From positions 1-43,220 of IMG/VR virus record IMGVR_UViG_3300017963_000401: DNA of 43,220 bases, one strand, 5' to 3'. This document shows, one piece after another, positions 2,326-19,061 of this stretch (its first letter is position 1; each line of letters opens with the position of its first letter). Made by a program: the position numbers and the translations under genes. The stretch comes from a virus. A model generated the notes under the pieces. It made no database searches, was not told the DNA's origin, and saw only the letters and a list, made by a program, of their open reading frames with translations.

Positions 2326-2332
2326 GTTTTCA

Positions 2333-2347
2333 GTACAAGCTCGTACC
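2333..2347. repeat. Inverted-copy palindromic repeat, copy 1
   Basis: GTACAAGCTCGTACC is itself an imperfect palindrome. Its reverse complement occurs exactly at 3583-3597. Here it lies between two small genes just upstream of a ribosome site; there it lies in the non-coding block. Confidence 0.5.
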
Positions 2348-2366
2348 AAAAGCAAGGGAGCGAACG

Positions 2367-2534
2367 ATGCGCGAATGCGATTACTGCAAGGATTCGGACC
2401 AAACTACTCCGCGGGAGGCGACGGTTAGCGTTTGGGAGCGCGATACCTACCCGCTCCATCACGTCGGCGATTGCTGCGATAAGCACAAGCGCGACATCGA
2501 TACTCTACGCTGCGAATTCCGAAGGATTGGGTAA
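2367..2534 (+). CDS. Zinc-ribbon-like small protein (55 aa)
   Basis: This ORF starts at ATG 2367 after GCAAGGGAGCGAACG, which closely matches the leader of the preceding gene. The product opens MRECDYCKDSDQTTP and has a second cluster DCCDKHKRDIDTLRC, so CxxC plus CC suggests one structural zinc. Between the clusters is HHVGD preceded by a hydrophobic turn. It ends 5 nt before the next ATG. Function unknown. Confidence 0.6.
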   Translation: MRECDYCKDSDQTTPREATVSVWERDTYPLHHVGDCCDKHKRDIDTLRCEFRRIG

Positions 2535-2538
2535 GACT

Positions 2539-2814
2539 ATGTTTCCCCTCAACGATGATGACTTGTCCATCCTGGCGCGAATTGCTCGCCTGGAATTCGA
2601 TCCAACCATCCCCCCGTCCTATCGCTACGCGGTAGCGCGTGGAATGGTCGCGCAGTGGAGCGAGCAAAAGCTAGCGGACTTCGCTAGCGCGCTAGGCTAT
2701 CCCGCGGAGACTAGCGCCAGCGAGATGGCTACGCTCATCATCGATGACTCGTTAGCGCTCGAGGTTTTCGACCGAAAGCTTCTGAGCGAGCTAGCAGCGC
2801 GGGAGGGAGTCTGA
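2539..2814 (+). CDS. Hypothetical small acidic protein (91 aa)
   Basis: ATG 2539 is preferred; TTG 2527 in frame would overlap the preceding gene and sits right on the GAAGGA ribosome site. The product is acidic at the N-terminus (MFPLNDDDLSILARIARLEFD), with a Ser/Ala-rich helical body and the segment VAQWSEQKLADFASALGY, which resembles WCSEQKLAKSRAELAH in the protein at 527-754. The shared SEQKLA word hints at a common short motif in this gene set. Function unknown. Confidence 0.55.
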   Translation: MFPLNDDDLSILARIARLEFDPTIPPSYRYAVARGMVAQWSEQKLADFASALGYPAETSASEMATLIIDDSLALEVFDRKLLSELAAREGV

Positions 2815-2832
2815 TGGACTCGCTTCCCCTCG

Positions 2833-3147
2833 ATGGTCTACCTCTCCCCTCCCAAAGCCAAGGGATGGGCGAGGGGAAGCGCTCGAGCGCTTGTAGGCTG
2901 CTACGTTGTCTCTCTGGCTTTCGTCCCGCGCTATTCCTACTCCCGCGGAGTCTCGCGCATCGATCGCTCGCGCTCCCATTGGGAGGTTAGCGTTTTCTCC
3001 GCTCGAGACTGGCTTTCCCCTCCCTCGGATGGCTTGCAGTGCGCAAGCTTTTGGGACTGGAAGGGGGAGCGCTTCTCTAGCCTATGGGAAGCGCGAAGCT
3101 TCTACCGTCAAACCCTAGCCTTCCTTTCAGGGGAGATGTTCGCATGA
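2833..3147 (+). CDS. Hypothetical aromatic-rich protein (104 aa)
   Basis: The frame opens right after the preceding stop (2812-2814), the first ATG is at 2833, and the end overlaps the next start in an ATGA junction at 3144. The product is rich in Trp, Tyr, Phe and Ser (for example YVVSLAFVPRYSY, FWDWKGERFSSLWEARSFYRQTL), unlike a shadow frame. It looks like a small compact beta-rich protein. No recognised family. Confidence 0.5.
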   Translation: MVYLSPPKAKGWARGSARALVGCYVVSLAFVPRYSYSRGVSRIDRSRSHWEVSVFSARDWLSPPSDGLQCASFWDWKGERFSSLWEARSFYRQTLAFLSGEMFA

Positions 3148-3368
3148 ATTCCGACCTAGAAACCCTCTCGCAAGCCATCCCCCTGATAGACCATTGCGCC
3201 AGCAATGGGAACATCACGATGCATGTTCTGCGCGATAACGAGCGCTCCCTTTGTGGAATTCGCTTCAACGATTCCCAACGTCCCGCGGGGAACATGCCTT
3301 GTAAGCGCTGCGCTCGCTTGCTCAAACGCAAGGATGCCAGCCTAGGGGAGCGCTTCGCAGCGCTCTAA
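3144..3368 (+). CDS. Zinc-binding small protein (74 aa)
   Basis: ATG 3144 overlaps the preceding stop (ATGA). The product contains an isolated Cys in LIDHCASNG, LCGIRFND and then PCKRCARLLKRK, so a CxxC plus distal Cys/His site is likely. Similar short proteins with a terminal CxRCxRLL box are common in phages and usually uncharacterised. It is the last gene of the plus-strand left arm and is followed within 20 nt by a strong hairpin. Confidence 0.6.
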   Translation: MNSDLETLSQAIPLIDHCASNGNITMHVLRDNERSLCGIRFNDSQRPAGNMPCKRCARLLKRKDASLGERFAAL

Positions 3369-3387
3369 CTCGCTCGAGCCACCCATC

Positions 3388-3414
3388 GAAACCCGCTCCC
3401 CTCGAGCGGGTTTC
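3388..3414 (+). terminator. Strong terminator hairpin
   Basis: GAAACCCGCTC (3388-3398) and GAGCGGGTTTC (3404-3414) form a perfect 11-bp stem with a 5-nt loop, 20 nt after the last gene of the left arm. The right arm ends in GTTTC, followed by TGCATG. This probably ends the left-arm transcript. Confidence 0.65.
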
Positions 3415-3541
3415 TGCATGTACTCCCTGCGAAATCCCTAGCTCCCTCGAGCGGTTTTAGCGTCTCTCCCGCTCCCGTTTTCATCCTTCGCAGGTTTTCC
3501 CCTCCCATCCTTTCGCCTCCCCTAGCGGCTCCCTTGGCTTC

Positions 3542-3560
3542 GCTCGAGGTAGGTTTTCGC
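3542..3560 (+). repeat. 19-nt exact direct repeat, copy 1
   Basis: GCTCGAGGTAGGTTTTCGC here is repeated exactly at 3980-3998, 438 nt away. The core GGTAGGTTTTCGCAG also occurs at 12785-12799 in another intergenic region. The repeats lie only in non-coding DNA and in the same orientation. Confidence 0.6.
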
Positions 3561-3582
3561 CTCCCCTCAAGCATCGGTTTTC

Positions 3583-3598
3583 GGTACGAGCTTGTACC
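3583..3598. repeat. Inverted-copy palindromic repeat, copy 2
   Basis: GGTACGAGCTTGTACC is a near-palindrome whose reverse complement matches the site at 2333-2347 over 15 nt. It sits in the non-coding block right after a GGTTTTC motif. A dimeric protein site is a reasonable guess. Confidence 0.5.
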
Positions 3599-3979
3599 GA
3601 AATCCCTCCCCTCTCGAGCATCGCAGGTTTTCACCCTAGCGAATTTCGCAGGGGACTAGCCTTCCCTCCCTCGTGCTTCCCTAGGTTTTCTCGCTCCCTC
3701 TCGAGCCACCTAAGCGCCGGTTTCCCTCCCGCCCTAGCCTTTCCCCTTTTGATGGTTTTCGCTTCCCTCCCCCCTTCCTAGCCTTTCCCTAAGTCCCGTT
3801 TTCCCGTTCTAGCAGGCTAAAAGCTACATCCATCACATCGCCAGGGTAGGTTTTCTCCCCTTCTCCCCCTAGTCCATCCCTACCTCAGTAGCCTACGCAT
3901 CCCCCTTAGCCATCACCTAGTTAGCTATCCCTCCCCTACCCTTTCTCTCCCCCTAGCTCCCCCTCCCTTTCCCCTTCCC

Positions 3980-3998
3980 GCTCGAGGTAGGTTTTCGC
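3980..3998 (+). repeat. 19-nt exact direct repeat, copy 2
   Basis: This is the second copy of the element at 3542-3560. Here it continues into GCAGGGGGATGG, and the 15-nt core GGTAGGTTTTCGCAG is shared with 12785-12799. Confidence 0.6.
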
Positions 3999-4190
3999 AG
4001 GGGGATGGCTAGGTTTTCGGAGGTAGGGGAGGGATTGCAGGCTAGCGATAGGCTCCCGCGAAATACCAGGGAGAGGGGAGGGTATGCGCCTAGGGGACTT
4101 CGCAGCGGTAGGGTTTCTCGCTGGCCTAGGCTGGCTTTTGCCCTCTTTTCCGTGCTCGCCCCCTCAAAACCTACTGCGAAATCCGCAGTC

Positions 4191-4232
4191 TCCCCCATAT
4201 CTAGGGGACTTACGCCGACCCATCCCCCATAT
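4191..4232. repeat. TCCCCCATAT direct repeat pair
   Basis: TCCCCCATAT occurs at 4191-4200 and 4223-4232, 32 nt apart. The inverted form ATATGGGGG occurs at 4609-4617, and CATATGGGGG there is the exact complement of CCCCCATATG at 4224-4233. The copies could be protein sites or arms of a long-range RNA fold. Confidence 0.4.
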
Positions 4233-4430
4233 GTTGTGGTGATGTCGTTTTTCAGAGGCTACCTCGAGTCCCCCTCGAGCGCTACTTTTCACGTTTTCTT
4301 GCCCGATTGTCCCGCCTGATAGGCATCCCCAATGGGACGTGAGCCGTATTCCGCGGCTAGCAAAGGTTCATCCGAGACGATTTCGGCTTTTAAGGGTTTA
4401 AACGTGTCGTCGTAAGTCCTTTGATCCCGT

Positions 4431-4454
4431 TGAAACGATGAGATGAAACGATGA
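4431..4454 (+). repeat. Direct repeat TGAAACGATGA x2
   Basis: TGAAACGATGA occurs at 4431-4441 and 4444-4454 with a 13-nt period, in an otherwise non-coding and locally less GC-rich stretch. The spacing near one helical turn fits iteron-like or regulator binding sites. Confidence 0.4.
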
Positions 4455-4490
4455 AATCGGTGCATCACTGATCGGAGCACACCAGCTACC

Positions 4491-4525
4491 GCAAAAAGGC
4501 TATCGTAGAGAGGGATCTCTCTACG
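4491..4525 (+). repeat. GCAAAAAGGCTATC plus hairpin element, copy 1
   Basis: GCAAAAAGGCTATC (4491-4504) runs into a perfect 9-bp hairpin, CGTAGAGAG (4504-4512) / CTCTCTACG (4517-4525), with loop GGAT. A sister element with the same layout is at 4677-4708. No gene is seen in 4251-4850. Confidence 0.5.
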
Positions 4526-4676
4526 GCTTGTTCGGAGATCCAGTCGTAGAGAAGCAACGCGGAAGGCCGGGAAAGCGAGTGTCCGCAGCCTCGAGCCACC
4601 TACACTACATATGGGGGTGGATGCGAGTTTTCGGCCTAGAGAGCATCGCGAAAACCGCAAAATTTCGCGGCATCCT

Positions 4677-4708
4677 GCGAAAAGGCTATCCGATAGAGCG
4701 AAGCTCTA
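4677..4708 (+). repeat. GCGAAAAGGCTATC plus hairpin element, copy 2
   Basis: GCGAAAAGGCTATC (4677-4690) differs by one base from the element at 4491 and is likewise followed by a hairpin, TAGAGC (4694-4699) / GCTCTA (4703-4708), with loop GAA. The hairpin sequences differ but the structure is kept, as expected for a functional RNA or protein-binding structure. Confidence 0.5.
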
Positions 4709-4723
4709 GAGGGCTGCGCGAGC

Positions 4724-4748
4724 AATGCACGGAATGCACGGAATGCAC
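4724..4748 (+). repeat. Short tandem repeat AATGCACGG x2.8
   Basis: AATGCACGG at 4724-4732 and 4733-4741 is followed by AATGCAC at 4742-4748. It is a perfect 9-nt tandem repeat in non-coding DNA upstream of the convergent minus-strand operon end. Confidence 0.6.
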
Positions 4749-4850
4749 TCCTCGAGCAGCGGTCGGCTAGCTCGAGGTGCTCGAGGAGCCCGCGGACAGC
4801 GTGCGCAAAGCACGCAGTTTCAAGCAGAAATCAGTCTTGCTTTTGATGTT

Positions 4851-5078
4851 TTAAGCCTGTAGTCGAGACTCGTAGATGCGAGCGCCACAAGGAGCCCAGC
4901 CGTAGCCGTAGGCTAGATTGGATGAGATGGCAACGAAGTGCTCAAAGAAGTGGACGGTCGGAACCTTCTTGTTTCGCCTGGCGTACTCCGCCTGGCTGGC
5001 GTTGTAGAGAGCGCGGACCTCGTCGTCGGTGAGATCCGGCAGTGCTCCGATCAGCCTGCGGATGTTGAAGTCAGCCAC
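4851..5078 (-). CDS. Hypothetical small protein (75 aa)
   Basis: The start is GTG (5078-5076) preceded by CTAAGGAGACATC, an excellent ribosome site. The product begins MADFNIRRLIGALPDLTDDEVRALYNASQAEYARR, a helix-loop-helix with an acidic TDDEVRAL turn, then a basic linker and a Tyr/Phe-rich C-terminal half. It is the most distal gene of the minus-strand block, set off from its neighbour by 131 nt that hold a hairpin. No family recognised. Confidence 0.65.
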   Translation of the reverse strand: MADFNIRRLIGALPDLTDDEVRALYNASQAEYARRNKKVPTVHFFEHFVAISSNLAYGYGWAPCGARIYESRLQA

Positions 5079-15811: not shown

Positions 15812-16504
15812 ATGGGTCGGACTATCTATACTCCTGAGCAACACAAGGAAGCCTGGGAGATCTATCTCAAGACCCAGAACTTCGCCGAGGTCGCACGCAA
15901 GTTCGGGATGAACTGGGAGACAGCGAAGAACTGGAGCAAGCCGGACTTCTCCTGTCCCTACGACTGCCCGTTTCACGGATACGACGCGCTGATGGCAGAG
16001 CATGAAGCAGCCCTCGTCACGCGCAGACGGCTGCTCGAGGCCGACGTGGTCAGTCCGATCAGCCACGCCAAGGCGACCAGCAACGCGATCGAGACGCTGA
16101 CGACGAACGTCCTTGGCTCGGACTACCCGATCAGCCGCACCGTCAGCGAGCGTCTTGCGCACCTTGAGTGGCTCTGGAGCAAGCTCTTCTACCACGCGAC
16201 CGGAATCCCTTTGGATTACGGTGACCACAAGGCAGAGGAGATCCTGACCCAATACCGCAAGGGTTTGAACGTGACCAGCATGGATCACGCTATCCGCGGC
16301 ATGAAGATGGTTCAGGATATGATGGACAAGCTCAGGGCTGCCGATGAGGGCAAGCCGTCCATCGAGGACGAGGAAGACCGTGAGATGTCGATCAGCGAAC
16401 TGCGCAAGTTGCGCAATTCTCTGAGCGGCCAGTCAGATCCGTCCGCTGTGAAGCGTATCCTACGAGGTGGTGATGCTTCCTCCTCCGCCTCCGCCATCGG
16501 ATAG
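15812..16504 (+). CDS. Small terminase subunit candidate (TerS)
   Basis: The 230-residue product begins with a helix-turn-helix (TPEQHKEAWEIYLKTQNFAE, then VARKFGMNWETAKNWS), as small terminases do to bind pac or cos DNA. It has a CPYDCPFH Cys pair, a long helical centre for oligomerisation (AIETLTTNVLG, then AHLEWLWSKLFYHATG), and an acidic C-terminus that could contact the large subunit. It lies directly upstream of, and overlaps by 32 nt, the large terminase gene. The Ser-rich last ten residues come from the overlap and are dictated by the polyproline codons of the next gene. Confidence 0.7.
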   Translation: MGRTIYTPEQHKEAWEIYLKTQNFAEVARKFGMNWETAKNWSKPDFSCPYDCPFHGYDALMAEHEAALVTRRRLLEADVVSPISHAKATSNAIETLTTNVLGSDYPISRTVSERLAHLEWLWSKLFYHATGIPLDYGDHKAEEILTQYRKGLNVTSMDHAIRGMKMVQDMMDKLRAADEGKPSIEDEEDREMSISELRKLRNSLSGQSDPSAVKRILRGGDASSSASAIG

Positions 16505-19061
16505 CGACCAGCTACCTCCTCCGCCCGCGCCTAGGGAACCAACTCCTCTTCCGGTCGTTGAGGAGGACGTTGTCCGGCTTGATGTCGCGGTCGATGAGCA
16601 CGTTCTCGGGCTTGATGTCGCGGTAGAAGATCCTCGTGTGCTCGAGGCGATTAACCGGCAGATCCTCTGGCACTACCTCGAGATCGACGCGAAGGGCAAG
16701 TTCAAGAACCCCCCGTCCACCGATGACGAACTCCACGAGTTCATCCAGATCGCTTACAACGCAAACATCCCGCGGAAGGCGATCGAGCCAGGGCACCGCG
16801 CACCTTTTGAGTTCATCGCGGACCTGTTCTTTGAGCGGACTCGCAATGCCCTAGCCTTCGCAAATCGAAGCGGCGGGAAGACGTTCGGGGTAGCGATCCT
16901 CAACCATCTCGACCTCCTATTTAAGTCGGGGTGCGAGATCGCGTCCGCGGGAGCGGTCAAGGCGCAGGCGAAGAAGGCTTACGGTTACCTGCAAGACTTC
17001 ATGCAGATGCCTTGGTTCATCTCGTTCTGCGAGAAGTTCGCCGAGGTGACTGGACGACCCTTCGTGAAGAAGGAGATTCAGGAGGAGACGAGCTACGCCA
17101 ACGGATCGAAGCTCGAGATCATCACCGGCACGGAAAAGGGTCTGCGCTCGCCTCACCCGCATAAGGCGCGCATCGATGAGATCGACCTAATCGAGTGGGA
17201 GATCCTTCAGACCGCACTCTCGATGGCTCACTCGAGCAAGGCAAAGGGGATCGTTGGGCAGAACGTGTTCACCTCGACGCGACAGCTTCAGAACGGCTCC
17301 ATGCAGCGAATGCTGGACGAGGCTTCAAACAAGGGCATTGAGATCTACGAGTGGAACGTCTGGGAGATGGTGGAGCGCTGCACTCGACGCTGCTTCGCTG
17401 ACCCGGAGCATGGAGACTGCCCGGTCTACACGTTCTGCAAGGGTAAGGCTCACGGGTCCGCGGGCTTCTTTCCGATCGAGGACTTCATCGACAAGGTCCG
17501 TCTGATCGACCGCGAGCGCTTCGAAGTCGAGTGGCTCAATAAGCGTCCGTCCCGCGAAAAGCTGGTCTACAGCATGTTCGACAACGGTCGGCACGTTATG
17601 ACCCGCAAGAAGCTCTACGAGATGACTCGCTGCCATCACCCTCAGATCACTTGGCCTCGAGTTGGTGGCATGGACTTCGGCTCTAGCCCTGGTCACCCGT
17701 TCGTCTATCTGAAGGTCACGCAGATGCCGACTGGTGCTTGGCTCGTGTTCTTTGAATACGTGGCGGAGCAGCGACTCATCCGTGACCACGCCAATGCAGT
17801 CAAGCGCTCACCGTTCTGGACTCGCTCCGAGCCGATCTACGCTGACTGGAGCGCACAGGACCGGCTCGAGCTTAAGGCTCTCGGTGTTCCGACGAAGCAG
17901 GCTCACAAGGACGTGTTGATGGGAATCGACCACGTCTCTAGCCTTCTTCGCGGTTTTCCTCCGGCTGAAGAACCGATGCTCTACGTCTGGGAAGACTGCA
18001 AGCACGTCCTCAGCGAATTCGGAAGCTATCGATGGCCGACCTACGCAGATGGTAGGGTCGATCGCACCGGGAAGCCGATGAAGGTGGACGATCACTGCCT
18101 TGCACCAGATACGCTGGTCTGCACACGGGGACACGGATGGGTCGAGATTCAGACCCTAGATGGCAAGGACGGGGAGATCCTTACCCCGGTCGGATTCCGC
18201 CCATATAACCGAGCACGCCAAACGCAGTCGAATGCTGAGGTCTACGAGGTGGTACTGTCAAACGGTGAAACACACCTCGCGACTGAAAACCACCTGTTTC
18301 TACTGGACTCTATGCGTTACGCTTCGGTAGCCGATCTCCATCCCGGTAGTCGGCTTTTGAAGGTGAGGCATGGACCTGAATCCAGTAGTCGTAAGCGAGA
18401 CGAAGCAGGTATTCCTTGGCGTTCCCTACTGGAAGTGCGGAAGGTATTTCAGCAGACCAAAGAAGGGCGGGGGACGGGAGTATCTTCATCGCTCGGTGTG
18501 GGAAGCGAGCCGCGGGGAGATCAAGCCTGGGTTTCATGTTCATCACGTAGACGAGGACACTTCAAACAACAACTTGGACAACCTCTGCTTGCTGTCGCCG
18601 AAGCAGCACTCAAACGAGCACATAAACGAGCAGAGGCGGAAGCAGTTGCGCGAGAACATGCTGAACAAAGCACTACCTGCGGCTTGCGCGTGGCACGCTT
18701 CAGAGGAGGGCCGGGAGTGGCACAAGCAGCACGGCAAGGAGACGTGGGAACGAAGGACCACAACTACCAAGACGTGCGAAGTCTGCGAAACCAGCTACGA
18801 AACCTTCTTCCCAAGCAGGAGCCGCTTCTGCTCTGCGAAGTGCAAGGCGAGAGCATTACGGGCGAGACGGTCGAAGTCAGCGAAGTCCGATTTGCCGGAT
18901 GCTCACCAGTCTGGTGCCTGAATGTTCCTGAGCTTCATTGCTTTTTGCTGAAGTCGGGCGTAGTCTCCCACAACTGCATGGACGCTTTGCGCTATGCTCT
19001 CTACTCGAGTAAGACGAGACGTGGTCCTCGCTACCGCGTGCGAAAGATGACGGGGATATGA
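16473..19061 (+). CDS. Large terminase subunit with intein (TerL)
   Basis: ATG 16473 follows ACGAGGTGGTG. The 862-residue precursor contains an N-terminal polyproline extension (LPPPPPPSDSDQLPPPP), the ATPase with Walker A FANRSGGKT (about residue 130) and Walker B RIDEIDLIEWE (about 232), a Cys cluster (ERCTRRC, then CPVYTFCKG), and the RNase H-like nuclease with MDFGSS (about 400), YADWSAQD (about 456) and VDDH plus CMDALRY. The last motif is interrupted after DDH by an intein (residues 542-834); splicing restores DDH-CMDALRYAL and a 569-residue enzyme. It pumps DNA into the prohead and cuts concatemers. The stop overlaps the next ATG. Confidence 0.92.
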   Translation: MLPPPPPPSDSDQLPPPPAPREPTPLPVVEEDVVRLDVAVDEHVLGLDVAVEDPRVLEAINRQILWHYLEIDAKGKFKNPPSTDDELHEFIQIAYNANIPRKAIEPGHRAPFEFIADLFFERTRNALAFANRSGGKTFGVAILNHLDLLFKSGCEIASAGAVKAQAKKAYGYLQDFMQMPWFISFCEKFAEVTGRPFVKKEIQEETSYANGSKLEIITGTEKGLRSPHPHKARIDEIDLIEWEILQTALSMAHSSKAKGIVGQNVFTSTRQLQNGSMQRMLDEASNKGIEIYEWNVWEMVERCTRRCFADPEHGDCPVYTFCKGKAHGSAGFFPIEDFIDKVRLIDRERFEVEWLNKRPSREKLVYSMFDNGRHVMTRKKLYEMTRCHHPQITWPRVGGMDFGSSPGHPFVYLKVTQMPTGAWLVFFEYVAEQRLIRDHANAVKRSPFWTRSEPIYADWSAQDRLELKALGVPTKQAHKDVLMGIDHVSSLLRGFPPAEEPMLYVWEDCKHVLSEFGSYRWPTYADGRVDRTGKPMKVDDHCLAPDTLVCTRGHGWVEIQTLDGKDGEILTPVGFRPYNRARQTQSNAEVYEVVLSNGETHLATENHLFLLDSMRYASVADLHPGSRLLKVRHGPESSSRKRDEAGIPWRSLLEVRKVFQQTKEGRGTGVSSSLGVGSEPRGDQAWVSCSSRRRGHFKQQLGQPLLAVAEAALKRAHKRAEAEAVAREHAEQSTTCGLRVARFRGGPGVAQAARQGDVGTKDHNYQDVRSLRNQLRNLLPKQEPLLLCEVQGESITGETVEVSEVRFAGCSPVWCLNVPELHCFLLKSGVVSHNCMDALRYALYSSKTRRGPRYRVRKMTGI
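16576..16624. repeat. 33-nt tandem repeat in the terminase N-terminus
   Basis: GGCTTGATGTCGCGGT occurs at 16576-16591 and 16609-16624, an exact 33-nt (11-codon) period. In the terminase frame it yields RLDVAVDEHVLG and LDVAVEDPRVLE. The complementary strand, read in one frame, gives YRDIKPENVLID followed by RDIKPDNVLLN, a protein-kinase catalytic-loop signature twice over. Confidence 0.7.
18096..18974 (+). mobile_element. TerL intein (293 codons) with nested endonuclease
   Basis: The element begins with Cys1 in CLAPDTLVCTRGHGWVEIQT (block A), has the block B Thr-x-x-His in LATENHLFLL, and ends with block F VWCLNVPELHCFLLKSG and block G VVSHN followed by Cys+1. All residues needed for standard class 1 protein splicing are present. 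The insertion point is inside the conserved nuclease motif of the terminase, a typical intein site. Instead of an in-frame endonuclease domain, the middle of the intein frame is open but low in complexity, because it is the alternate frame of a separate HNH gene. Confidence 0.9.
18370..18921 (+). CDS. HNH homing endonuclease nested out of frame in the intein
   Basis: ATG 18370 follows TGAAGGTGAGGC, a usable ribosome site. In-frame TGA codons at 18358 and 18364 rule out any longer upstream reading. The 183-residue product has the HNH_3 core: YLHRSVWEASRGEIKPGFHV, then HHVDEDTSNNNLDNLCLLSP and KQHSNEH, with the HHVDED pair as metal/catalytic centre. A C-terminal CEVCETSYETFF, then RFCSAKC zinc module resembles those of the other HNH protein here. 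Its frame is +1 relative to terminase-intein, which stays open across all 184 codons. It is expected to cut the intein-free terminase allele and drive intein spread. Confidence 0.9.
   Translation: MDLNPVVVSETKQVFLGVPYWKCGRYFSRPKKGGGREYLHRSVWEASRGEIKPGFHVHHVDEDTSNNNLDNLCLLSPKQHSNEHINEQRRKQLRENMLNKALPAACAWHASEEGREWHKQHGKETWERRTTTTKTCEVCETSYETFFPSRSRFCSAKCKARALRARRSKSAKSDLPDAHQSGA

Follow-up and report, generated by a model that had tools for sequence, protein, structure and literature searches.

In textbook inteins the nuclease is an in-frame domain. Here we analysed viral DNA of 43,220 bases (IMG/VR record IMGVR_UViG_3300017963_000401, positions 1-43,220; the window), in which the terminase large-subunit gene carries an intein with an endonuclease at the same position between the splicing halves. 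However, whereas a canonical large intein is one polypeptide with an in-frame domain, the endonuclease of the window is a separate, overprinted gene. A second known arrangement is that of fractured genes, which Dassa reportedly described in 2009 and in which a free-standing endonuclease is said to lie between the halves of a split intein. Fractured genes likewise tie a separate endonuclease gene to an intein, and three relatives of the window locus (L020, L071 and L121) share their layout, but the window intein is unsplit, and the intein and the HNH gene share the same DNA. By profile, the HNH region of the window matches I-HmuI (PDB 1u3e; E = 0.001), whose host, however, is a group I intron and whose overall fold match to the window HNH protein is weak.

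Out-of-frame HNH genes have been described in phage DNA methylase insertions without splicing motifs, namely the ShiLan domain and the Pacc40 insertion (PMC11855218). As in the window, the HNH gene is hidden in an insertion that is open in the frame of the host gene. Those insertions, however, lack a splicing domain and presumably remain part of the protein (PMC11855218), whereas the carrier in the window is a terminase intein with all splicing motifs; the window thus shares with the ShiLan type the out-of-frame HNH gene but differs from it by the presence of these motifs. A hidden out-of-frame HNH gene within a phage gene is therefore already published, for a non-splicing insertion (PMC11855218). 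That paper cites, for overlapping frames, a preprint by Gosselin et al. (2025; 10.1101/2025.01.02.630785) on non-canonical actinobacteriophage inteins. The preprint may already describe the nested-HNH intein arrangement, hence we make no claim of a first report; none of the papers that we searched and found describes a terminase intein with an HNH gene in another frame.

An HNH gene out of frame within a terminase intein

The features of the locus are collected in Table 1. The first residue of the intein (Cys1, at 18096), its last Asn (ending at 18974) and the Cys that follows at +1 are all in the terminase frame, and the intein also has the block-B TxxH. Cys1, Gly33, T63xxH66 of block B and the terminal Asn (N293) are invariant among the 30 inteins aligned. 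The window intein matches PF14890 and TIGR01445 with profile scores below the curated cutoffs (Intein_splicing on the intein alone, E = 1.5e-5, under the curated cutoff). In the AlphaFold model, residues 1-90 and 257-293 form an ordered splicing fold around a middle of low confidence, and the splicing halves resemble solved inteins by fold (HINT; best E 6.5e-6). Profiles of the window intein found no endonuclease domain in the intein-frame middle. The intein ORF is continuous, with the halves on one protein rather than on separate ones as in split inteins, and the endonuclease lies in the +1 frame rather than in the intein frame as in canonical inteins. The sole match in a search with the window intein as query was a sister contig.

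Table 1. Features of the terminase locus in the window
Feature	Position	Strand	Basis and remarks
Terminase large-subunit ORF	16467-19061	+	earliest start codon GTG; actual start possibly further downstream
Terminase N-terminal part (N-extein)	16467..18095	+	PHROG terminase large subunit matches, best 1.1e-16; L112/L113 terminases 54-58% identical
Intein, 293 codons, terminase frame	18096..18974	+	Cys1 and terminal Asn; inserted in nuclease motif DDH^CMDALRY
N-terminal splicing region, blocks A and B	18096..18368	+	AlphaFold pLDDT above ~88, residues 1-90
HNH-frame stops (TGA 18358, 18364) and SD-like AAGGTGAGG ahead of ATG	18357..18369	+	sequence; duplex energy -4.4 kcal/mol
HNH_3 and zinc-finger homing-endonuclease-like gene	18370..18921	+	+1 relative to intein; ATG 18370, TGA 18919-18921; 183 aa
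Sole stretch with well-predicted structure in both frames	18864..18918	+	intein strand 257-274 over last helix and loose tail of HNH protein (AlphaFold models)
Terminase C-terminal part (C-extein), CMDALRYALY...	18975..19061	+	junction read in empty-site relatives

The site is empty in two intein-less terminases, L112 and L113, which read ENDH^HLDRLRY and ENDH^SMDQIRY at the insertion point (junction sequences ENDHHLDRLRYSL and ENDHSMDQIRYGL). Because these relatives read through the same place, the insertion is precise and lies within the conserved DHxxDAxRY motif. The L113 terminase (2331-4904; 54% identical), with its C-terminal site empty, carries in its P-loop a seemingly ordinary in-frame LAGLIDADG-type intein.

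The nested gene matches Pfam HNH_3 (PF13392; E = 8.4e-15, above cutoff) and phrog_15471 (3.6e-34), and its product contains the conserved residues H58, H59, N67, N71 and H80 as well as C136, C139, C154 and C158. The protein is modelled confidently throughout except for its tail (AlphaFold mean pLDDT 93); Foldseek of the whole model against the PDB gave no significant match. Coordinates, frames and the Pfam match agree with the preliminary description of a complete HNH_3 gene out of frame in the intein. The gene takes up the place that an endonuclease domain usually has in inteins. Both TGA codons on which that description based the exclusion of a fusion are present in the HNH frame and close it to any fusion from upstream. 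Its claim of an own ribosome site holds in part: the SD-like AAGGTGAGGcATG is plausible but, at -4.4 kcal/mol, not strong. We looked for a promoter upstream of the window HNH gene and found none.

We propose, with a probability of roughly 0.85, that the locus is a cis-splicing mini-intein in the terminase catalytic motif with an independently translated, overprinted HNH homing endonuclease at the usual endonuclease position. Translation of the terminase-intein frame would proceed without interruption, the splicing domain would fold from its two ends, leaving the overprinted middle as a loose spacer, and excision of the intein would give active terminase. A second ribosome would start at the internal ATG and produce the free HNH enzyme. 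The probable role of this enzyme is to cut terminase genes that lack the intein, at the DDH^CMDALRY motif or close to it; repair after the cut would then copy in the intein and the nuclease together. A separately translated, overprinted mobility nuclease, as the preliminary description had it, is supported as the best explanation.

SD-like sites precede 38% of nested starts versus 19% of control ATGs (Fisher p = 5e-5), but they are absent in many members, and when all starts were compared by rank the difference was not significant (p = 0.12). An alternative is that programmed frameshifting out of the intein frame yields the HNH protein as an intein-nuclease fusion; it could draw on the single transcript that carries both frames and would fit the weak SD signals of many members. 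It is, however, very unlikely, since stop codons close the HNH frame 3 and 9 bases ahead of the window ATG, an HNH-frame stop lies at most 84 bases upstream of the first start in 84 of the 86 loci with a start, and the HNH gene stands alone in the split forms (L071 and Lactobacillus phage CL2).

Distribution and reading-frame phase among phages

Well over a hundred further phage sequences share the two-in-one layout. With the HNH family as query, 108 distinct loci were found; in 89 of them the HNH gene is fully enclosed by a long ORF in a different frame, and in 19 it is not. The nested loci span 27-67% GC, and the enclosing ORF is nearly always a terminase with intein motifs: the N-terminal intein junction was recognized by pattern in 87 of the 89 and the C-terminal one in 71. 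Most loci failing the patterns show the junction by eye; exceptions are L070, where no intein is seen, and L099, where the C-terminal side is lost. Three sequenced phages of this set, Rhodobacteraceae phage LS06-2018-MD07, Tetrasphaera phage TJE1 and Acinetobacter phage Highwayman, carry the gene unannotated inside terL, their annotation recording the terminase only; annotation thus overlooks such nucleases.

We also searched blind to the HNH gene, using the intein C-terminus plus the terminase motif as query. Of the resulting 70 distinct loci, 67 were nested (51 of them new), two were nested but cut by the contig end and one was a mini-intein without the gene; since the query came from nested members, these numbers describe this intein lineage and not all terminase inteins. 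The preliminary description had called for relatives with the same intein but no nested gene, or with an in-frame endonuclease. The former exist: L134 (2165-2563) is a mini-intein of 133 aa at the same terminase site, which has neither the nested gene nor the intein-frame middle, the opposite of the conserved middle without HNH gene that would have spoken against nesting. The latter form was found in 0 of the 70 inteins at the terminase site. The intein with a nested HNH gene is the dominant form found at this site and not a one-off.

Most HNH relatives that lack an enclosing ORF and have readable flanks are free-standing genes adjoining terminase genes. This proximity, together with the assistance that HK97-type HNH proteins give to terminase (PMC10448857), would be expected if the nested protein were an accessory nuclease of DNA packaging and no homing enzyme. 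We consider this improbable, because the HNH gene stands where inteins have their endonuclease, occurs patchily along with the intein (empty sites; mini-intein L134), and has as its sole solved sequence relative the homing enzyme I-HmuI. With a homing endonuclease, the whole family would divide splicing and mobility between two proteins translated separately from one DNA stretch, and each could therefore evolve or vanish alone.

The phase of the HNH gene relative to the intein is +2 in 87 of the 89 nested loci and +1 only in the window and L042. In the HNH tree these two are apart, each placed amid +2 loci with low support, and among the splicing domains compared that of the window is an outlier. 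Such a pattern would be expected if the phase had changed twice independently, or if the genes had moved into other inteins. As the phase differs between loci, the overlapped peptide can be wholly replaced.

Selection on the two frames

As a null for the open intein frame, we shuffled synonymous codons of the HNH gene, keeping protein and codon usage, and counted intein-frame stops. The window has no stops versus 6.8 expected, and only 9 of 50,000 shuffles were stop-free, bearing out the earlier estimate that the frame is open beyond chance. Across 88 nested genes we observed 0 intein-frame stops versus 240 expected (432 with upstream codon usage), a total that is zero partly by selection of loci, since they were called nested by their open frame. 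The window test is free of this bias, as are the third frame of the nested genes used as a control (1802 stops observed, 1803 expected) and the not-nested relatives, where stops are about as expected in both frames (main exception, PAE1, 1 versus 8.6 in one frame). The spacer frame of nested-HNH inteins is thus kept open by selection.

A chance open frame in GC-rich DNA is ruled out by the synonymous shuffles and by relatives of 27-40% GC. Sequencing error, an assembly slip or a one-off event is ruled out by the sister contig with the same arrangement (99.985% identity over 6.9 kb; possibly from the same sample) and by 88 other distinct loci; in particular, an error that had separated the frames of one ordinary intein endonuclease, a refuting condition of the preliminary description, is excluded by the many independent relatives that share the layout.

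The codon-constraint check proposed earlier was applied to both frames. In close pairs, dN/dS is low in the HNH frame (for instance, 0.16/1.66 for L061-L065 and 0.10/0.56 for L018-L031), and purifying selection acts on this frame. An HNH gene that rides along without any current function, the open intein frame being a relic, is very improbable, given these ratios and the retained catalytic and zinc residues. In the overlapped intein frame the ratio is near or above 1 (0.34/0.17 and 0.18/0.08, respectively), which means no detectable constraint on the peptide rather than none, because constraint on the HNH frame alone itself yields a ratio of about 1 there. No selection was detected on the overlapped peptide beyond staying open.

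The intein-frame middle thus looks like an unconstrained spacer, and most of the overlap does not look like dual coding of two functional proteins. Since the models show a splicing domain ordered at its ends and a well-folded HNH protein, the two functional products lie one after the other, and only approximately 18864-18918 is truly dual coding. We rejected a functional intein-frame peptide within the overlap, since neither dN/dS nor the model gives any sign of it and the peptides encoded in the two phases differ. As naturally occurring overlapping genes, the loci lend themselves to the study of overprinting.

Split relatives and a second nested gene

Split inteins are major biotechnology tools, and the relatives of the window locus suggest a concrete route between intact and split forms. 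In L020, L071 and L121 (Lactobacillus phage CL2), TerL-IntN, HNH and IntC-TerL are separate ORFs, the layout of a split intein; the IntC ORF of L071 is preceded by an SD of its own, and its start overlaps the HNH stop. We infer that loss of the open spacer frame would convert an overprinted intein to a split one, or the reverse.

A further case lies in L006 (606-1169), where a NUMOD4-HNH_3 gene of 188 codons occupies the +1 frame of a further intein of the L006 terminase, in its P-loop. It has 0 intein-frame stops versus 10.7 expected, and 0 of 20,000 shuffles were stop-free. Among the NUMOD4-HNH relatives of this gene, only 1 of 64 distinct loci is nested, that same gene, so the set doubles as a negative control. 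We lean towards the view that overprinted inteins are a widespread, previously unrecognized architecture, in which an HNH family directed at the nuclease motif of terminase has repeatedly lodged its gene in mini-inteins, out of frame and in one phase or the other, in which stops in the spacer frame can give split inteins, and which, judging from the NUMOD4-HNH gene of L006, arose more than once.

Three other features of the relatives were seen. In L071 (3771-4500), a promoter-like TTGTAA-17-TATAAT lies ahead of the HNH gene in the split-intein terminase. In L121 (1-2723), the terminase is apparently split by the intein with a free HNH gene between, and the IntC-terminase tail is unannotated. 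In L094 (3700-4640), a free HNH gene follows an intact terminase, and after it the terminase 3' tail (DLIRYFVYTVARQLNKWVI) is present once more, perhaps left over from an insertion that interrupted the gene.
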